Below are positions 13,465 to 35,139 of a DNA stretch of 39,030 bases, piece by piece. The position numbers and the translations under genes were made by a program. The DNA is from an uncultured Rubrobacteraceae bacterium (GTDB lineage Bacteria; Actinomycetota; Rubrobacteria; Rubrobacterales; Rubrobacteraceae). The notes beneath the pieces are model-generated. The model was given only the letters and a program-made list of their open reading frames with translations. It made no database searches and was not told where the DNA came from. The first letter of the stretch is position 1. Each line of letters opens with the position of its first letter. The stretch covers positions 1 through 39,030 of the forward strand of contig CADCVF010000038.1 in the NCBI GenBank assembly GCA_902806095.1, read 5' to 3'.

Positions 13465-13490
13465 GTTCTAGAGTTTAGCGCAAGGTTCGA

Positions 13491-13718
13491 GCATTTCAGC
13501 AAATCAGCACGCTCCAGCCTTCGGCTTTCGCTTGTCAGCACGGCGCTTCGCGCCTTGTCAGCACTTCAGCAAGTCGTCCCGTAGCCTCCCCACGAGCGTC
13601 GAAGGTGACCACCGCGGCTAGTATGTTCCTCGTGCGCGGCCAGGCGAGGGCGAAGCGGGAAAAGCTGAATTGCTGACCAGCGAAGCCCGAAGGGCGCAGC
13701 CTGCTGAAATGCTGATTT
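13491..13718. repeat. dispersed GCTGAAATGCTG repeat, copy 1
   Basis: GCATTTCAGC at 13491 and CTGCTGAAATGCTG near 13701 flank modules rich in CTTGTCAGCAC and short GC hairpins (for example GGCGCTTCGCGCC). The stretch fills most of the 304-base gap between two divergent genes and carries no gene that I can support. Related copies occur near 14330, 19330-19553, 29034-29163 and 33995-34110. Confidence 0.65.
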
Positions 13719-13733
13719 GCAGGCAATTCATCC

Positions 13734-13762
13734 TTGTCTCACTAGTCTCAGTGAAGTATAAT
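13734..13762 (+). promoter_or_regulatory. sigma-70-type promoter of a leaderless gene
   Basis: TTGTCT (13734-13739), a 17-base spacer and TATAAT (13757-13762) form a near-consensus promoter. The ATG at 13769 lies 7 bases beyond the -10 box, where transcription should begin, so the mRNA would be leaderless. Confidence 0.8.
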
Positions 13763-13768
13763 GGGTGC

Positions 13769-14296
13769 ATGACAGATACGAGGAACATCAGGCAGGATTG
13801 GCTGAGTGTCCCGCGGCGGCGGGAAGAGGAGCGTTTGGACCCGCACGTGTACAAGCGCGGCATCAACGGGCTGACGGTCGAGGAGGCGTTAGGTCGGGCG
13901 TATCCGAGGGTGATGGACATTCTGAGGAGGAGTGGCGAGGAGTATTCGGAGTTCGAGCGGCAATTGGTAAGGCAGACCGTTCGGGCGTGTCTGATCTCCC
14001 AGGTCTCCCGCGCGAACCTCTATCGCATCGCCGGCATCCTGGTCGCCGACAGGCGCGACGAGGGGGCGCACATCGAGACTTCGCTCGCGCTCGCCTACGT
14101 TGCGGCGCTCAGGGAGGCGTTCCTCACGGAACTTTCCGTCGGAGAGCGGGTACAGACGCCGCTCGGTTCAGGGGAAGTCCGCTACGTCTCCGGTGATGGC
14201 ACCAACGCCGCCGTCAAGCTAGACAACGACTACGAGGTCTGGTTGCCGGCTGAGAAAGTGTCGCGTCCCGGCTCCCCCTTGCGACACGCCTCCTAG
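13769..14296 (+). CDS. hypothetical protein with C-terminal SH3-like segment
   Basis: A 175 aa protein that I do not recognise. The N-terminal two thirds look helical (ERLDPHVYKRGINGLTVEEA, then ROW-like charged helices around SEFERQLVRQTVRACLISQV). The C-terminus reads VGERVQTPLGSGEVRYVSGD and then AVKLDNDYEVWLPAEKV, a pattern resembling a small beta-barrel (SH3, KOW or Tudor type) such as in proteins that bind nucleic acid or the transcription machinery. The fold assignment is inference. The start is set by a strong promoter that leaves no 5' leader. Hairpin 14301-14330 follows. Confidence 0.65.
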   Translation: MTDTRNIRQDWLSVPRRREEERLDPHVYKRGINGLTVEEALGRAYPRVMDILRRSGEEYSEFERQLVRQTVRACLISQVSRANLYRIAGILVADRRDEGAHIETSLALAYVAALREAFLTELSVGERVQTPLGSGEVRYVSGDGTNAAVKLDNDYEVWLPAEKVSRPGSPLRHAS

Positions 14297-19329: not shown

Positions 19330-19553
19330 GCAGCATTTCAGCTTGTCAGCACGCCGCCTTGCAGGCGGCTTGTCAGCATTTCAGCTTCTTAATTCGCGCT
19401 TATCGGCCGAATGCGCGAACCGCAGTGGGTTGATGTCTCTGCCAATCTCTCTGAAACAGTCTGCAGAGAGACTACGCCTCCTACAAACCGCGGCTGCAGG
19501 CTATGGGCGTCAGCTTTCAGCGAAACCAAGCTAAAATGCTGAAGTGCTGAAAT
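19330..19553. repeat. dispersed GCTGAAATGCTG repeat, copy 3
   Basis: CAGCATTTCAGCTTGTCAGC and a GCCGCC-TTGCA-GGCGGC hairpin open the block; GCTGAAGTGCTGAAATGCTT closes it. The middle (CGAATGCGCG..CGCAGT..CTCTGCC) matches 14368-14403. GTCTCTGCC and GCAGAGAGAC can pair, so an RNA from here would be structured. It fills the gap between two convergent genes. Confidence 0.65.
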
Positions 19554-19589
19554 GCTTGCAAAGGGGTTTTCAACCCCTTTGCAAGCATT
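19551..19589. terminator. bidirectional hairpin between convergent genes
   Basis: An 18-bp perfect stem (19551-19568 with 19572-19589) with a TTC loop separates the CPBP gene from the citrate synthase gene and runs into the latter's stop codon. Confidence 0.7.
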
Positions 19590-28172: not shown

Positions 28173-29015
28173 CTACACGGCCTCGGAGAGGGCGCGGCGC
28201 AGGGTGCTGGCGTAGCGGCCGGTGCGGATGGTCCTGAGAGCCTTGATCTCCACCTGACGCGCCCGCTCCTGGGAGATACCGAGCTCCTCGGAGACCTCGC
28301 GCAGGGTGAGGGTGTTGCTGCCGTCGAGGCCGTGGCGCATCTCGATGATCCTGGCCTCACGCTCGGGCAGGGACCTCACGGCCTCGACGAGCGCCCGCTC
28401 CCACTGGCCTACCTCGACTCGGGCGTATTCGTCGCCGGAGTGCTCGTCAGGGAGCAACTCGCCGAGCTCGGAGCCTTCGTCGGCGTTGATCTTTGCGTTG
28501 ATGCTGGAGATGGGCTGGCTGACCTCGCGCAGACGCCTGGCCTCCTCCGGTCTTACGCCGAGCCTCTCCACGAGTTCCTCCTCGGTTGCGTCGCGGCCGA
28601 GTTCGAGGCTCAGGGCGTTCTCGGCGCGTCGCAGGCGGTAGAGAGCATCGACAACGTGCGCGGGCAGACGGACGGTGCGGGCATTGTCGGCGACGGCGCG
28701 GGTAACGGCCTGCCTTATCCACCAGGTCGCGTAGGTCGAGAAGCGGTTGCCCATCTCGGGGTCGAACTTCTCGACGGCCCGGATCAGGCCAGCGTTCCCC
28801 TCCTGGATCAGATCCTCGAAGGGCACGCCACGACCCCTGTATTTCTTGGCGATGGAGATCACGAGCCGCAGATTCGACTCGATGAGCTTCTGACGGGCCC
28901 TCATGTCCCCACCGCGGGCCCGCCTCGCGAGATCCTTCTCCTCACCGGCATCGAGCAGCCTGCCGCCGCGCACCCTGCCCAAATACTGTGTGAGAACGTC
29001 CCGTGCTTCCATCAT
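28173..29015 (-). CDS. sigma-70 family RNA polymerase sigma factor (group 2-like)
   Basis: A 280 aa sigma factor with regions 1.2 to 4: [20 protein letters not shown] (1.2), [20 protein letters not shown] and [19 protein letters not shown] (2.1-2.2), [20 protein letters not shown] (2.3-2.4), a region 3 and [20 protein letters not shown] (4.2). It lacks the long N-terminal 1.1 of a primary sigma, so an alternative or secondary role is likely. The ATG follows GAGGGGAGACC. It may be co-transcribed with thyX. No anti-sigma gene is adjacent, but a STAS/HATPase gene lies 2 kb upstream. Confidence 0.92.
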
Positions 29016-29033: not shown

Positions 29034-29163
29034 GCTGGTCAGCATTTCAGCACGCCGCCTATCGGCGGCTCTCAGCACTTCAGCTTTCGCATGTGCAAGC
29101 CCTGGCTGAAGTGCTGACAAGCGAAGCCCGAAGGGCGTAGCGTGCTGACTGGCTGAAATGCTG
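29034..29163. repeat. dispersed GCTGAAATGCTG repeat, copy 4
   Basis: GGTCAGCATTTCAGCACGCC and GCCGCC-TAT-CGGCGGC at one end pair with GCGTGCTGACTGGCTGAAATG at the other, giving a long imperfect inverted repeat. It fills the gap before the sigma gene. Confidence 0.65.
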
Positions 29164-29167
29164 TTCA

Positions 29168-29494
29168 TCATGCTGCTGGGTACGATCCTCCGGCCCTTGG
29201 GCCCCCGTGCGTTACAAAGCGATCCAGGATGCGGCCGTCCAGGCTCGATGTGACGCGCCAGCTCCGCCCGCACGAGCAATCTAGCTCGAGGCGTCGACGC
29301 TCGCCCACCTCGGACATTGCCGACTCCCTCAGGGAGCGCAGGCAACACGCTGGCAACGACCACACGTAGATCTCCCGCTCGGGCTCGCCAACGGGGATGA
29401 GCGCGGTATCGGGCCTGAGGGCGCTCCGTCGCTTGCGTGCCCTTACTTTGCGCGATGCTTCTCCGCCCACCTTCTGCCTCCCTCTCTCCCACAT
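29168..29494 (-). CDS. small cysteine-motif protein, paralogue 2
   Basis: A 108 aa basic protein. Its centre and C-terminus read VWSLPACCLRSLRESA and LELDCSCGRSWRVTSSLDG, matching the LPACC and C-x-C-G-x-x-W pattern of the gene just upstream (29501-29737). The cysteines suggest a small zinc site. The ATG at 29494 is 6 bases behind the previous stop. The N-terminal 45 residues are Arg/Lys-rich and may be linker or belong to an alternative start. Function unknown; last gene of a five-gene same-strand block. Confidence 0.55.
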   Translation of the reverse strand: MWERGRQKVGGEASRKVRARKRRSALRPDTALIPVGEPEREIYVWSLPACCLRSLRESAMSEVGERRRLELDCSCGRSWRVTSSLDGRILDRFVTHGGPRAGGSYPAA

Positions 29495-29500
29495 CGTTTT

Positions 29501-29737
29501 CTACGCTGCTCCTCTACGCTCTTCTGGCTGTACGAAGGCGTCCTCCTCGGGCTGCAGAGGCAGCGGCTCCCGCCACATCGCGCCGCACGCCGGACACTCG
29601 AACGATTCGTCGTGGTGAAGGGCGCTGCGTCTGCAGCAGGCGGGGAGATCCTCCTCGTAGACGACCTCCTCGCCGAGGGCTGCGATCCAGGCGGATCCGC
29701 GCACTACGCGGCCCTCCCCGAAAGACGCCCGATCCAC
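29501..29737 (-). CDS. small cysteine-motif protein, paralogue 1
   Basis: A 78 aa acidic protein from GTG 29737 (GGAGG 7 bases upstream), overlapping the preceding gene by 34 bases. It reads YEEDLPACCRRSALHHDESF and then ECPACGAMWREPLPL, a Cys-Cys plus Cys-x2-Cys arrangement expected to bind zinc. The overlap implies coupled translation with the annealing-protein-like gene. Not a family whose function I know. Confidence 0.6.
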   Translation of the reverse strand: MDRASFGEGRVVRGSAWIAALGEEVVYEEDLPACCRRSALHHDESFECPACGAMWREPLPLQPEEDAFVQPEERRGAA

Positions 29738-30282
29738 TCGCTCGCCTCCTCACGAGTAAGCTCACCCACAGGCTTTCCGACCATCTCCTCGAAGCGGCCG
29801 ATCCCATCCTCGACAACGTCTGAAATGAGGGCCTCGAGGTAGTTGAGCTGCTTCCTCGTCGCCGGTAACTCGCCTCTTCCTTCCTCGTTCTGCGCCTTCG
29901 GCTGCTGCCCGTTACGCTCCTGGGTTCCCGAAGAAACCACGACCTCTTCCTCGCCGCCGAGCTCCTCGAAAGCGGTGACGCCGACGTTGATGGCATCCCT
30001 CAGAGCACGCGCCTTGGCCCTCGTCTCGGCCATCCGGATCAGGTGCGGAGCTATCGCCCGGTTCACGTTCTGCGGAGAGGCATCCCCGATACCGCCGAAC
30101 TTGCCCTCCTCCGTCCGGATCATGGCCTTGACGATCGCGACCTCGCCGTTCTCCTTGGCAGGGACCTGCAAAAGCTCCGTCTCGATGCTCCTGAGCCCCC
30201 GGCTGTGCGCCTCCTCCAGAAGACCCGCATAGAGCACGAACCTCTTGCCCTGGCGCTCGATCATGTACTCTTCCCTCATCAC
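29704..30282 (-). CDS. putative single-strand-annealing-related protein
   Basis: A 192 aa protein beginning MMREEYMIERQGKRFVLYAG. It carries the block GLRSIETELLQVPAKENGEV, then GGIGDASPQNVNRAIAPHLI and RMAETRAKARALRDAINVGV. That Met-Ala-Glu-Thr-Arg-Ala helix is typical of families near Rad52/Sak/ERF-type and DdrA-like proteins and of phage recombination accessories. The C-terminus has a separate helical domain (TRKQLNYLEALISDVVEDGI, then VGELTREEASEWIGRL) like those ending many phage annealing proteins. AGGAGG precedes the ATG. A DNA-repair or recombination role is an inference from these resemblances only. Confidence 0.55.
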   Translation of the reverse strand: MMREEYMIERQGKRFVLYAGLLEEAHSRGLRSIETELLQVPAKENGEVAIVKAMIRTEEGKFGGIGDASPQNVNRAIAPHLIRMAETRAKARALRDAINVGVTAFEELGGEEEVVVSSGTQERNGQQPKAQNEEGRGELPATRKQLNYLEALISDVVEDGIGRFEEMVGKPVGELTREEASEWIGRLSGRAA

Positions 30283-30355
30283 TGAACCTCCTCCGACCAG
30301 AAGCCGGTAACGCTATCTTCACTGAACTCGGTGAGGATGTGGTCAAAAATAAACA

Positions 30356-30961
30356 TCAGGCGATCCGCTCGTAGGTGTATTGGCGCCCGCCAGGGGCTGC
30401 TGTTTCGATGCGGCGGTGGATCAGGCCGAGTTTCGCGAGCCTGGTCGCCCTGTTGTTGCAAGCTGTATGGTTGAGATCCAGCCTTGCGGCGAGGGCCGCG
30501 TTAGTGATGGAGCCTGAGTCGTAGATAGCCTGCAGGGTCTCGAGAAGGTGGTCAGGTACCTTGCCGACTATGCCTGGCTCGGCCCCGATCTCGTCGACCC
30601 GGATCATGGCGAGCGAACGCTGCCTCAAAGAGGCCTCGACGTTCTCCAGGAGATCCCGGTCCTCCTCGACCAGAACAAGATGTCTGTCCCCATACTCCCC
30701 ACTCGCAGACCGCGACACCAGTATCCCAAGCGCCTCGTCAGCGAACGAGTAGTCCATGAGCTCGACCCCCCGCGTGTCCACATACAGGATGCCCCCCTTG
30801 GGCAACTCCTCCAGCGCTCCTTCGAGCGACTCCCTGACCGCGCGGCCGGTCCTGCGGGTCACCATCAGCTTGCCCCCGAAGTCGCCCCCCGCGACCTCGA
30901 AAACCCGGTGCGCCCGCTCCTCAATCACCGGTGCCGTCCTCACTGTCGTCAGTGAAATCAT
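30356..30961 (-). CDS. STAS-like (DUF4325) plus winged-helix protein
   Basis: A 201 aa two-domain protein. Residues 15-120 resemble the STAS-like DUF4325 fold (VFEVAGGDFGGKLMVTRRTG, VDTRGVELMDYSFADEALGI, DRHLVLVEEDRDLLENVEAS). The C-terminal 70 residues look like a winged helix (LETLQAIYDSGSITNAALAA, then ATRLAKLGLIHRRIE). It could therefore be a DNA-binding regulator whose activity depends on the STAS-like part. Its promoter is near consensus and leaves almost no leader. The STAS/HATPase gene ends 62 bases upstream, so the two probably form a partner-switching pair. Confidence 0.7.
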   Translation of the reverse strand: MISLTTVRTAPVIEERAHRVFEVAGGDFGGKLMVTRRTGRAVRESLEGALEELPKGGILYVDTRGVELMDYSFADEALGILVSRSASGEYGDRHLVLVEEDRDLLENVEASLRQRSLAMIRVDEIGAEPGIVGKVPDHLLETLQAIYDSGSITNAALAARLDLNHTACNNRATRLAKLGLIHRRIETAAPGGRQYTYERIA

Positions 30962-30969
30962 ATATGAGG

Positions 30970-30998
30970 ATTGTACCGGTCATTCCTGGATAAGTCAA
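30970..30998 (-). promoter_or_regulatory. promoter of the STAS-like/HTH gene
   Basis: On the minus strand TTGACT (30998-30993), a 17-base spacer and TACAAT (30975-30970) precede the ATG at 30961 by 8 bases. This gives the HTH gene its own start point, independent of the STAS/HATPase gene upstream, and an almost leaderless mRNA. Confidence 0.75.
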
Positions 30999-31023
30999 CG
31001 GCATATCGGGGGGTTTTCTGTCT

Positions 31024-31938
31024 TCATCCGGAGGATTTTTCCTGCTGGGTGCGTGGTAGGGAGACGCGGACGAAGGTACCTGGAAATTCCGGGACGTTGC
31101 GGGAGTTTTTACGGTTCTCGTAGACGGTCACGCGGCCCGAGCCGGAGCGCAAAGAGAGGGAGCCGCCGGCGCGGGCGGCGATCCCTGCTACGAGGGCGAG
31201 GCCTCCTCCGCGGCCGATCTCACCGGTCGCCGAGACGCCCATCTCGAGTGCGTGGCGCAAGGCGTCGGTATCGGTGGTGGTATGTTCGGAGTATTTCGGG
31301 TTACGGGAGAGCGTCTCGCGCACGCCTACGCCGCCGTCGGCGATCGCGATGAGGACCTCTTCGCCGCGGCGGCGGGATCCGCTGACGATGTGATGGTAGG
31401 CCTGGACGGCGGCGTAGGCCCCGAAGGATGAGACCCCGTGCTCGGCGGCATTCGCGCAGACCTCTGAGAGAGTGGAGCAGATCGCGACTCTCTCGCGCAG
31501 GCGGTAGCCCTGATTCTCCAGGATCTCCGAGATTCTCTCGATGATCCCGGGTATCTCCTCTTCGGCGTGAAAGTTGATCAACTCCTGCAGCGTTCCTGGG
31601 TTGTGCCGCCTGCGCTCCTCCAGAGACGCCACATCGGCGTTGGTGCGCACTCGGTCCCCGAACGACCTGAAGAAGTTCATCCGCTCCAGGTAGGCCGGCA
31701 CGTCACGTCCGGTGAGTGCAAGATCCACCACCTCACAACGGGCGCACAGGTACTCCAGTAGCGCTGCGAGAGCACAGAGTCCGGCCGGCTCGACGAACTC
31801 GACCGTACGCAGGTCGACGACCACGGGCCCTCCGTCCACGCCTGTGGCGGCGTCGAACGCCGGATCGAGGCTGCCCATGGTCAGCACCCCGCTCATCGCG
31901 CCCCGGCTCCTGATGTTCAGATCGAGCTGCGTCTTCAT
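31024..31938 (-). CDS. STAS domain fused to GHKL ATPase (anti-sigma-like)
   Basis: A 304 aa fusion. Residues 1-105 form a STAS domain (VVVDLRTVEFVEPAGLCALA). Residues 130-300 form a GHKL/HATPase domain with all boxes: N box LSEVCANAAEHG, G1 IADGGVGVRE, G2 GEIGRGGGLALV. Anti-sigma kinases and their STAS antagonists are usually separate proteins; here they are fused. The phosphorylatable Ser of anti-anti-sigma factors is absent (EPAGL), suggesting the STAS part is a fixed docking or oligomerisation module. TACAAT is 7 bases before the ATG. The likely partner is the STAS-like/HTH protein downstream. Confidence 0.78.
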   Translation of the reverse strand: MKTQLDLNIRSRGAMSGVLTMGSLDPAFDAATGVDGGPVVVDLRTVEFVEPAGLCALAALLEYLCARCEVVDLALTGRDVPAYLERMNFFRSFGDRVRTNADVASLEERRRHNPGTLQELINFHAEEEIPGIIERISEILENQGYRLRERVAICSTLSEVCANAAEHGVSSFGAYAAVQAYHHIVSGSRRRGEEVLIAIADGGVGVRETLSRNPKYSEHTTTDTDALRHALEMGVSATGEIGRGGGLALVAGIAARAGGSLSLRSGSGRVTVYENRKNSRNVPEFPGTFVRVSLPRTQQEKSSG

Positions 31939-33995: not shown

Positions 33996-34110
33996 CACGC
34001 CGCCTGCAGCGGCTTGTCAGCATGTCAGCAAGGACCTGCGCATGCGAAAGCTGAAGTGCAGACAAGCGAGGGCCTGAAAGGCCCGAGCGTGCTGAAATGC
34101 TGAAGTGCTC
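33995..34110. repeat. dispersed GCTGAAATGCTG repeat, copy 5
   Basis: AGCACGCCGCCTGCAGCGGC and CTTGTCAGCATGTCAGC at the left, GCGTGCTGAAATGCTGAAGT at the right, with internal GGGCCTGAAAGGCCC. Same composition and order as the copies at 13491 and 29034. Confidence 0.65.
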
Positions 34111-34294: not shown

Positions 34295-34367
34295 GGGCCG
34301 CTAGCTCAATTGGCAGAGCAAGAGACTCTTAATCTCTAGGTTCCAGGTTCGAGTCCTGGGCGGCTCA
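34295..34367 (+). tRNA. tRNA-Lys (anticodon CTT)
   Basis: A 73-nt cloverleaf: acceptor GGGCCGC/GCGGCTC (one G-U pair), D arm GCTC/GAGC, anticodon stem AGAGA/TCTCT with loop CTCTTAA (anticodon CTT, reading AAG), five-base variable loop, T arm CCAGG-TTCGAGT-CCTGG and discriminator A. CCA is not encoded. A TATAAT box lies at 34279-34284. An integrase fragment starts 100 bases downstream, so the tRNA 3' end is a probable attachment site. Confidence 0.95.
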
Positions 34368-34468
34368 CTTCTCGAATCGGTGTACCTACGCCGCATTCCC
34401 GCCGCCAGCCGCCCTGCCTCGGCCGCTCCAATCGAGCTCTACCACGTCTTTTACCACGACAGGCTAAT

Positions 34469-35139
34469 CTAACGCCCGCCGAGAGCGTCGCCGAAGTGAC
34501 CGAAGGACTCCCTCTGGTAGCGGGGAGAGAGGTGGCTGTAAGTATTGATCGTGGTCGTAATCGAGGAGTGGCCAAGGACCTTTTGCAGGACCTCGGCTGA
34601 TTCACCCGACTCGACCCAGAGCGTGGCGAAAGAGTGCCGGATGTCGTAGGGGCGCATTGGAGGGACACCAGCTTTCCTGAGCAGCTTCTTGAACTGCTGG
34701 CGGTTCACGTTGCCGTGGTCGAGGGGCGTGCCAGCGCGGCTTGGAAAGACGAGGTCGCGGTACTCGGGATTCTTCGCCCAGGCCTCCTCCCAAAGGACGC
34801 GGTACCTGACCAGCTCCTCGAGATAGCGCGTCCTGTGGGAGCTCATGGCGGCGGCCGCCTCCGGCAGTAGCGAAACGGGCCTGCCCTTCCCGGTCTTGGT
34901 GGTTTCGCGCATCACGGCTCCGGTCCTCGTGGCCGACCACGAGCGGCGGATCAGGAGCTCGCCGTCGGAATCGTCCTTGGGTAACCTGACGTCGACCCTT
35001 TTCAGACCGAAGACTTCCCCTGGCCTGAGGCCAGTTAGACACCACACTATCCCCAGGGCCTCGAGTCTCTCGCCAGCCGCGGCACCGAAGAAGGCCTCCA
35101 GGCCGTCGAGGTCGAGGGTGGGACGCTCCTTCTTCTGCT
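34469..35139 (-). pseudogene. tyrosine recombinase (phage-type integrase), 5'-truncated
   Basis: The catalytic domain of a tRNA-targeting integrase. Recognisable are the first catalytic Arg in TGLRPGEVFGLKRVD, Lys in ETTKTGKGRPVSLL, PYDIRHSFATLWVESG (Arg-His), VLQKVLGHSSI and the nucleophile region TTTINTYSHLSPRYQ. The frame continues upstream of its first GTG through RPTLDLDGLEAFFGAAAGER and then stops being integrase at about 35140, where it meets the truncated alpha/beta hydrolase. The N-terminal core-binding and arm-binding domains are absent, so it cannot be a functional integrase. It faces the tRNA-Lys gene, as island integrases do. Confidence 0.85.

Follow-up and report, generated by a model that had tools for sequence, protein, structure and literature searches.

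Among described systems, the locus reported here comes closest to CapK/CapS, a kinase activated by DNA damage together with the repressor it controls (Chambers et al. 2026, EMBO J; PMC13373217). CapK is activated by single-stranded DNA (ssDNA) and phosphorylates CapS at Ser54, its own N-terminal helix-turn-helix (HTH) being dispensable, and ChIP-seq revealed CapS binding in the gap between capK and capS as well as in the gap between capS and the downstream operon (PMC13373217). In VapKSC the kinase has a STAS-GHKL architecture without an HTH, and VapS, which lacks a winged HTH (wHTH), inhibits the VapC toxin (PMC13373217). A GHKL kinase also acts on a STAS serine in SpoIIAB/SpoIIAA and RsbW/RsbV.

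The window, that is, the whole stretch of 39,030 nucleotides analyzed here, corresponds to contig C38 in a Rubrobacter-type genome of 3.83 Mb. The original prediction proposed a candidate system of five consecutive minus-strand genes (A to E), and all five open reading frames are present. It overlooked a sixth gene (sigma), an unlinked gene (X) and a set of putative operators. The genes are as follows.

31024..31938, minus strand: gene A, predicted STAS-GHKL kinase, CapK/VapK-like, without N-terminal HTH (Pfam, hhalign, Asn163)
30356..30961, minus strand: gene B, predicted STAS-wHTH repressor, CapS-like (CapS structure matches, Ser72)
29704..30282, minus strand: gene C, predicted single-strand annealing protein with a C-terminal helical domain (AF2, BFVD)
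29501..29737, minus strand: gene D, CC...CxxCG micro-protein (in all 34 loci; homologous to E)
29168..29494, minus strand: gene E, D paralogue with a C-terminal SSLDxRVLxRFVTH extension (in 33/34 loci)
28173..29015, minus strand: sigma, RpoD/SigA-like, regions 1.2-4 (Pfam, PDB matches)
13769..14296, plus strand: gene X, order-wide protein and candidate third target of B (34/39 genomes)

A search of 39 Rubrobacterales genomes with protein C led to 33 orthologous loci, representing 12 genera, which were then scanned. The order A-B-C-D-E on one strand was kept in the window and in the 33 orthologous Rubrobacterales loci wherever the contig was long enough, which exceeds chance by far; one locus (L044) has no detectable E, and another (L052) begins within C at a contig end. 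The co-occurrence of the five genes, proposed from the single sequence, is confirmed in these loci. One copy of D is frameshifted. In every locus, sigma is the next gene after E. Most loci have 2-85 nt between E and sigma (152 nt in the window), and hence sigma is probably part of the transcript. Genes for ThyX and an acetyltransferase are the usual flanks of the block, at variable distance.

A had been read as a STAS domain fused to a GHKL ATPase and B as DUF4325 plus a winged helix, and profiles bore out both. Member-wise Pfam scans detected HATPase_c in 12/12 and STAS_2 in 10/12 members of A, and a winged helix in 12/12 and DUF4325 in 9/12 members of B (best 7.9e-6). Over both domains, the B profile matched PDB chains 9z72/9z73 and 9z71 (E 1.9e-6 for 9z72, 1.1e-5 for 9z71); these chains are structures of CapS, which was published together with the kinase CapK in June 2026 (PMC13373217). 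The published genes for CapK (WP_001567866.1) and CapS (WP_001567865.1) were taken for comparison. A aligned with Enterobacter roggenkampii CapK at an hhalign probability of 97.1 (E 7.5e-11) and B with CapS at 92.0. Ser72 of B aligns with the CapS phosphoserine S54 and is kept in 33/33 sequences, as is Gly192, the wing glycine, while Asn163 of A aligns with the catalytic N218 of CapK and is kept in 32/32. As in CapKS, the STAS-GHKL kinase gene is directly followed by the STAS-wHTH repressor gene, and the phosphoserine and the catalytic asparagine are both retained. In contrast to CapK, A begins at the STAS domain and has no N-terminal HTH, and the ssDNA-contacting residues W68, K237 and K239 are not conserved, their counterparts in the alignment being Ser23, Ser186 and a variable residue, which suggests that the activating signal of A may be something other than ssDNA. 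Judged by these alignments, A-B is homologous to CapK/CapS and is a CapKS-like pair, not strict CapKS. The original prediction, which knew of no described system with this gene set, therefore fails for the regulatory pair, a Rubrobacterales version of CapK/CapS (PMC13373217). A shares with the VapKSC kinase the lack of an HTH, but B differs from VapS in bearing a wHTH, and no VapC-like PIN protein was found in the block. A search for viral homologues yielded none for B and a single weak one for A. A plasmid relative of B turned up only once, in Janibacter, where the gene for a DUF4325 protein lies near a ThiF gene in a CapKS-like setting.

The two regulatory and the three downstream genes had been said to be separate units if they occurred independently in relatives, and this holds in part. 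The INDEPENDENCE test returned A-B pairs without C-E at G024:C1:4010975-4012391, G028:C1:466256-467735 and G302:C24:27551-28601, and Chloroflexota and phages have relatives of C but no accompanying A-B. Within Rubrobacterales, however, every C-D-E block on a sufficiently long contig was accompanied by A-B. Matches outside the family among 346 genomes of the phylum were limited to one genome for B and four for A. Since A-B is found elsewhere without C-E, the gene distribution indicates that it is a portable regulator which in this order became attached to the C-D-E-sigma operon, was inherited with it and is fixed in the Rubrobacterales core genome.

C had been likened to recombination accessory proteins, and its predicted structure agrees with that. 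The AF2 model (pLDDT 89.6, 101 aligned sequences) displays a bb-a-bbb-a core followed by a C-terminal helical domain. Among the best 50 matches in BFVD, all those with a functional name are ERF, RecT or Bet annealases. A Foldseek search of the PDB returned weak dsRBD-like matches, with no solved annealase among the best 50. The Rad52 pairing domain is itself classed as dsRBD-like by SCOP. C itself has no Pfam match, and its sequence family is phrog_22961, of unknown function; individual relatives match Rad52_Rad22 (1.8e-4), a RecT-like PHROG (8e-5) and an Erf-like PHROG (0.004). Many relatives of C are found in phages, where they adjoin genes for SSB, a Gam-type inhibitor, DnaB and primase, and the relatives in Chloroflexota and Armatimonadota occur without A, B, D or E. 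From the predicted fold, the viral structural matches, the phage neighborhoods and the family matches of its relatives, C is most likely a single-strand annealing protein of the Rad52/RecT/Erf type. It resembles the Rad52/RecT/Erf/Redbeta superfamily (PMC11783212) in its predicted core, its named viral structural neighbors and the replication and recombination genes around its phage counterparts, but it forms a family of its own without a direct match to a solved annealase and is a chromosomal core gene placed behind a damage-type regulator. The start of C is probably the ATG at 30279, with a conserved MREE. Nearly all genomes of the order contain a second copy, C', which is flanked by DnaC and a metallo-beta-lactamase-like gene, linked also to a DnaD-like gene and with SSB (named from its N-terminal sequence) nearby.

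D and E had been described as twin, related cysteine micro-proteins, and they are indeed homologous (hhalign probability 95.8, E 8e-9), sharing the invariant residues P48, C50, C51, C73, C75 and W79 (E numbering). D probably starts at a GTG overlapping the TAG stop of C (29704), which would make it a protein of about 67 aa whose translation is probably coupled to that of C. The fold of E, predicted with D rows in the alignment, was of low confidence (pLDDT 63.7) and found no match in the PDB, so that it is the cysteine pattern which suggests that D and E may bind zinc. As a guess, they could be partners of C or of sigma.

CapKS pairs mostly sit before immune operons (PMC13373217), and C-D-E, with X, might accordingly be thought to oppose phage, for instance by interfering with phage recombination; the many phage relatives of C would fit, as would the pair in G302, which by inspection adjoins genes resembling type I restriction-modification. 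Yet vertical inheritance has preserved the block across the whole order, in contrast to the patchy spread of defence islands, PADLOC finds nothing for C, D or E, no toxin-like domain is present, and the paralogue C' lies in a replication cluster. We regard an anti-phage operon as improbable. The block also departs from CapKS in this respect, its operon consisting of annealase, cysteine proteins and sigma with no known immune system, and in being a core gene set of an order with an unlinked candidate target, X.

Alignment of the intergenic regions of the 33 loci exposed a palindrome in the B-C gap. The corresponding sites and the B promoter are listed below.

30970..30998, minus strand: B promoter TTGACT-N17-TACAAT, 8 nt before the ATG (alignment of 33 loci)
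30940..30955, read on the minus strand: putative operator 1, TCACTGACGACAGTGA, at codons 3-8 of B (30/33 perfect)
30319..30334, read on the minus strand: putative operator 2, TCACCGAGTTCAGTGA, in the B-C gap (24/33 perfect)
13739..13754: putative operator 3, TCACTAGTCTCAGTGA, between the -35 and -10 of gene X (sequence)

The B promoter is of the sigma70 type, lies just 5' of the start and is conserved in the 33 loci. Operator 1, TCACT-N6-AGTGA, has one mismatch in the three loci where it is not perfect. Within it, the codons TCA for Ser3 and ACA for Thr6 are each used in 33/33 loci, against 18/277 and 17/338, respectively, elsewhere in B; the freezing of these rare codons indicates selection on the DNA. 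For operator 2, eight loci, including the window, carry one mismatch and one locus carries two, where shuffled sequences would lead us to expect about 0.06 of 33 loci to reach one mismatch and none to reach zero. The whole genome of the window contains four perfect TCACT-N6-AGTGA copies and the one-mismatch copy before C. Of the 39 genomes, 37 contain the pattern TCACTNNNNNCAGTGA and almost none contains a reversed control pattern. There are 0 to 4 sites per genome, almost all at B, in the B-C gap or at X, and none upstream of A or sigma. The remaining palindromes (G000:C40, G020:C220, G023:C234, G036:C24, G036:C61) have no gene in common. These data suggest that TCACT-N6-AGTGA is probably the operator of B. 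The predicted sites thus resemble those of CapS in lying at the repressor's own gene and before the downstream operon, with none before the kinase gene, whereas the half-site is TCACT here and TTAA in CapS. No TCACT palindrome was found near B in the independent A-B pairs of G024, G028 and G302. An intrinsic terminator was rejected as an explanation of the palindrome, there being no T run after the stem on either strand. A micro-ORF between B and C (25 aa in the window), whose start overlaps the B stop in 29/33 loci, was not treated as a gene because, outside the operator, its variation is not enriched at third positions.

No convincing -10 element for the C operon was seen in the intergenic alignment, leaving room for read-through from B. 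Together with the linkage of C' to DnaD-like, DnaC and SSB genes in the same genomes, this would suit a constitutive replication and repair housekeeping operon, A-B regulating themselves alone. An operator with at most one mismatch in the B-C gap of 32/33 loci argues against such an arrangement, which we consider very unlikely.

The GHKL domain of A is of the RsbW/SpoIIAB type, B contains a STAS domain and no block lacks a sigma gene, so that A could conceivably act as an anti-sigma factor for the downstream sigma with B as its antagonist, the output being sigma activity and not operator release. Partner switching of this kind is hardly what the wHTH of B and the probable operators at B and in the B-C gap would lead one to expect. 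Moreover, sigma, for which Pfam finds regions 1.2-4 and the best PDB matches are SigA, RpoD and RpoS, is RpoD/SigA-like and not of the group typically controlled by anti-sigma factors, and homology to CapK/CapS is enough to account for both A and B. We hold this explanation to be improbable. In the switch that we favor, the output would be a DNA-binding repressor, in contrast to the release of sigma in SpoIIAB/SpoIIAA and RsbW/RsbV.

In the window, operator 3 fills the spacer between the -35 (TTGTCT, 13734-13739) and the -10 (TATAAT, 13757-13762) of X, a gene that lies about 20 kb from the block in several genomes. Among 31 X promoters, 16 carry the operator with at most two mismatches. The X protein is highly conserved and has no informative Pfam or PDB match; matches to Pizza-repeat PDB entries cover 30 residues and were judged spurious. 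From its promoter sequence, X is a candidate third target of B in about half of the genomes.

Taken together, we read A-B as a putative CapKS-type switch over itself and the C-D-E-sigma annealase operon, forming a damage-induced regulon separate from LexA, and give this reading a probability of roughly 60%. The regulator class and the operator are well supported; the half-site, TCACT as against TTAA in CapS, and the presence of the X operator in only half of the genomes count against the reading, as do the unconserved ssDNA contacts of A, the lack of a convincing C-operon -10 and the want of a solved annealase among the best 50 PDB matches of C. We infer DNA binding by B, phosphorylation by A, annealing by C and the sigma output, and the sense of repression and the damage signal are drawn from homology to CapKS. 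In undamaged cells, a dimer of B would sit on the TCACT-N6-AGTGA sites within gene B and between B and C and thereby keep B itself and the C-D-E-sigma operon repressed, along with X in roughly half of the genomes. A DNA-damage signal would activate kinase A, which would phosphorylate Ser72 of B and cause the dimer to dissociate, so that annealase C, the cysteine proteins D and E and sigma are produced. At DNA breaks, C would then help complementary single strands to anneal again, and sigma may extend the damage response. Signal-controlled DNA repair, which the original prediction drew from a regulatory pair preceding three genes, one annealing-like and two for related small cysteine proteins, remains the likely theme in this scheme. 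That the switch starts annealing repair and a sigma-driven second wave apart from LexA, and thereby aids radiation resistance, is a more tentative and on balance doubtful proposition.

Rubrobacter radiotolerans is among the most radiation-resistant bacteria. The genome paper reported neither LexA in strain RSPS-4 (two lexA genes occur in the type strain) nor IrrE/PprI, PprA or DdrA-D, and it suspected other pathways (PMC4148983). Absence of LexA from the whole order is ruled out, since LexA scored above the cut-off in 28/39 genomes; the proposed response would therefore run beside SOS in most of them, and the weight of the A-B switch could be greatest in genomes lacking LexA, as reported for RSPS-4. 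If the switch reading is true, CapKS would reach beyond accessory immune operons into core DNA repair, and an annealase of the phage type would be governed by a chromosomal damage response. With its order-wide distribution, recognizable putative operators and CapKS-like regulator, the predicted annealase operon is a concrete, testable candidate for a damage response apart from LexA in these radiation-tough bacteria.

In 29 of the 33 orthologous block loci, a small ORF of 19-34 codons starts on the stop codon of B, the CapS-like STAS-wHTH repressor gene, and ends around the start of C, the predicted single-strand annealing protein (SSAP) gene (window 30283-30358, minus strand). No codon-phase signal was found in this ORF. 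It may nevertheless link the two flanking genes, B and C, at the level of translation. An additional perfect palindrome resembling the operator, the probable B site, was observed elsewhere in the window's own genome (L264 1959-1974; G000:C40:15458-15473), with no recognisable conserved target gene at this position.

Intergenic gaps of the window, including that between the cysteine micro-protein gene E and the sigma gene, contain scattered AGCAyTTCAGC repeats (17 matches versus 0.38 expected from shuffled sequence), which look like REP-type elements. A tRNA gene adjoining an ORF that resembles part of a tyrosine recombinase suggests the scar of an integrated element, approximately 2.5 kb from the block.

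13490-13713, 14330, 19332-19556, 29041-29162 and 34019-34109, both orientations: AGCAyTTCAGC repeats
34295-34368, plus strand: tRNA-Lys(CTT) gene, adjoining the recombinase-like ORF
34469-35047, minus strand: ORF resembling the C-terminal portion of a tyrosine recombinase (integrase), adjoining tRNA-Lys(CTT)

A pair resembling B and the kinase gene A, with DUF4325, lies close to a ThiF adenylyltransferase gene on a Janibacter plasmid (L313 3070-4549), and is probably a CapKS-type (kinase-repressor) pair adjoining a Bub-like operon in Actinomycetota.

The second annealase-like paralogue, C', lies in a cluster that recurs across Rubrobacterales, in several complete genomes approximately 40-60 kb from the contig's first base. 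In the window's own genome the cluster reads:

L056 6915-11963 (G000:C3): DnaD-like, DnaC, C', metallo-beta-lactamase-like, SSB

An extra C-type copy is present on the Rubrobacter marinus megaplasmid (L065 8001-8672), near a gene annotated ruvC. Relatives of C are also encoded by 79 viral loci (L147-L225), many of them just ~110 aa long, corresponding to the core domain alone. For phrog_22961, whose function is not annotated, SSAP-like could serve as a new annotation.
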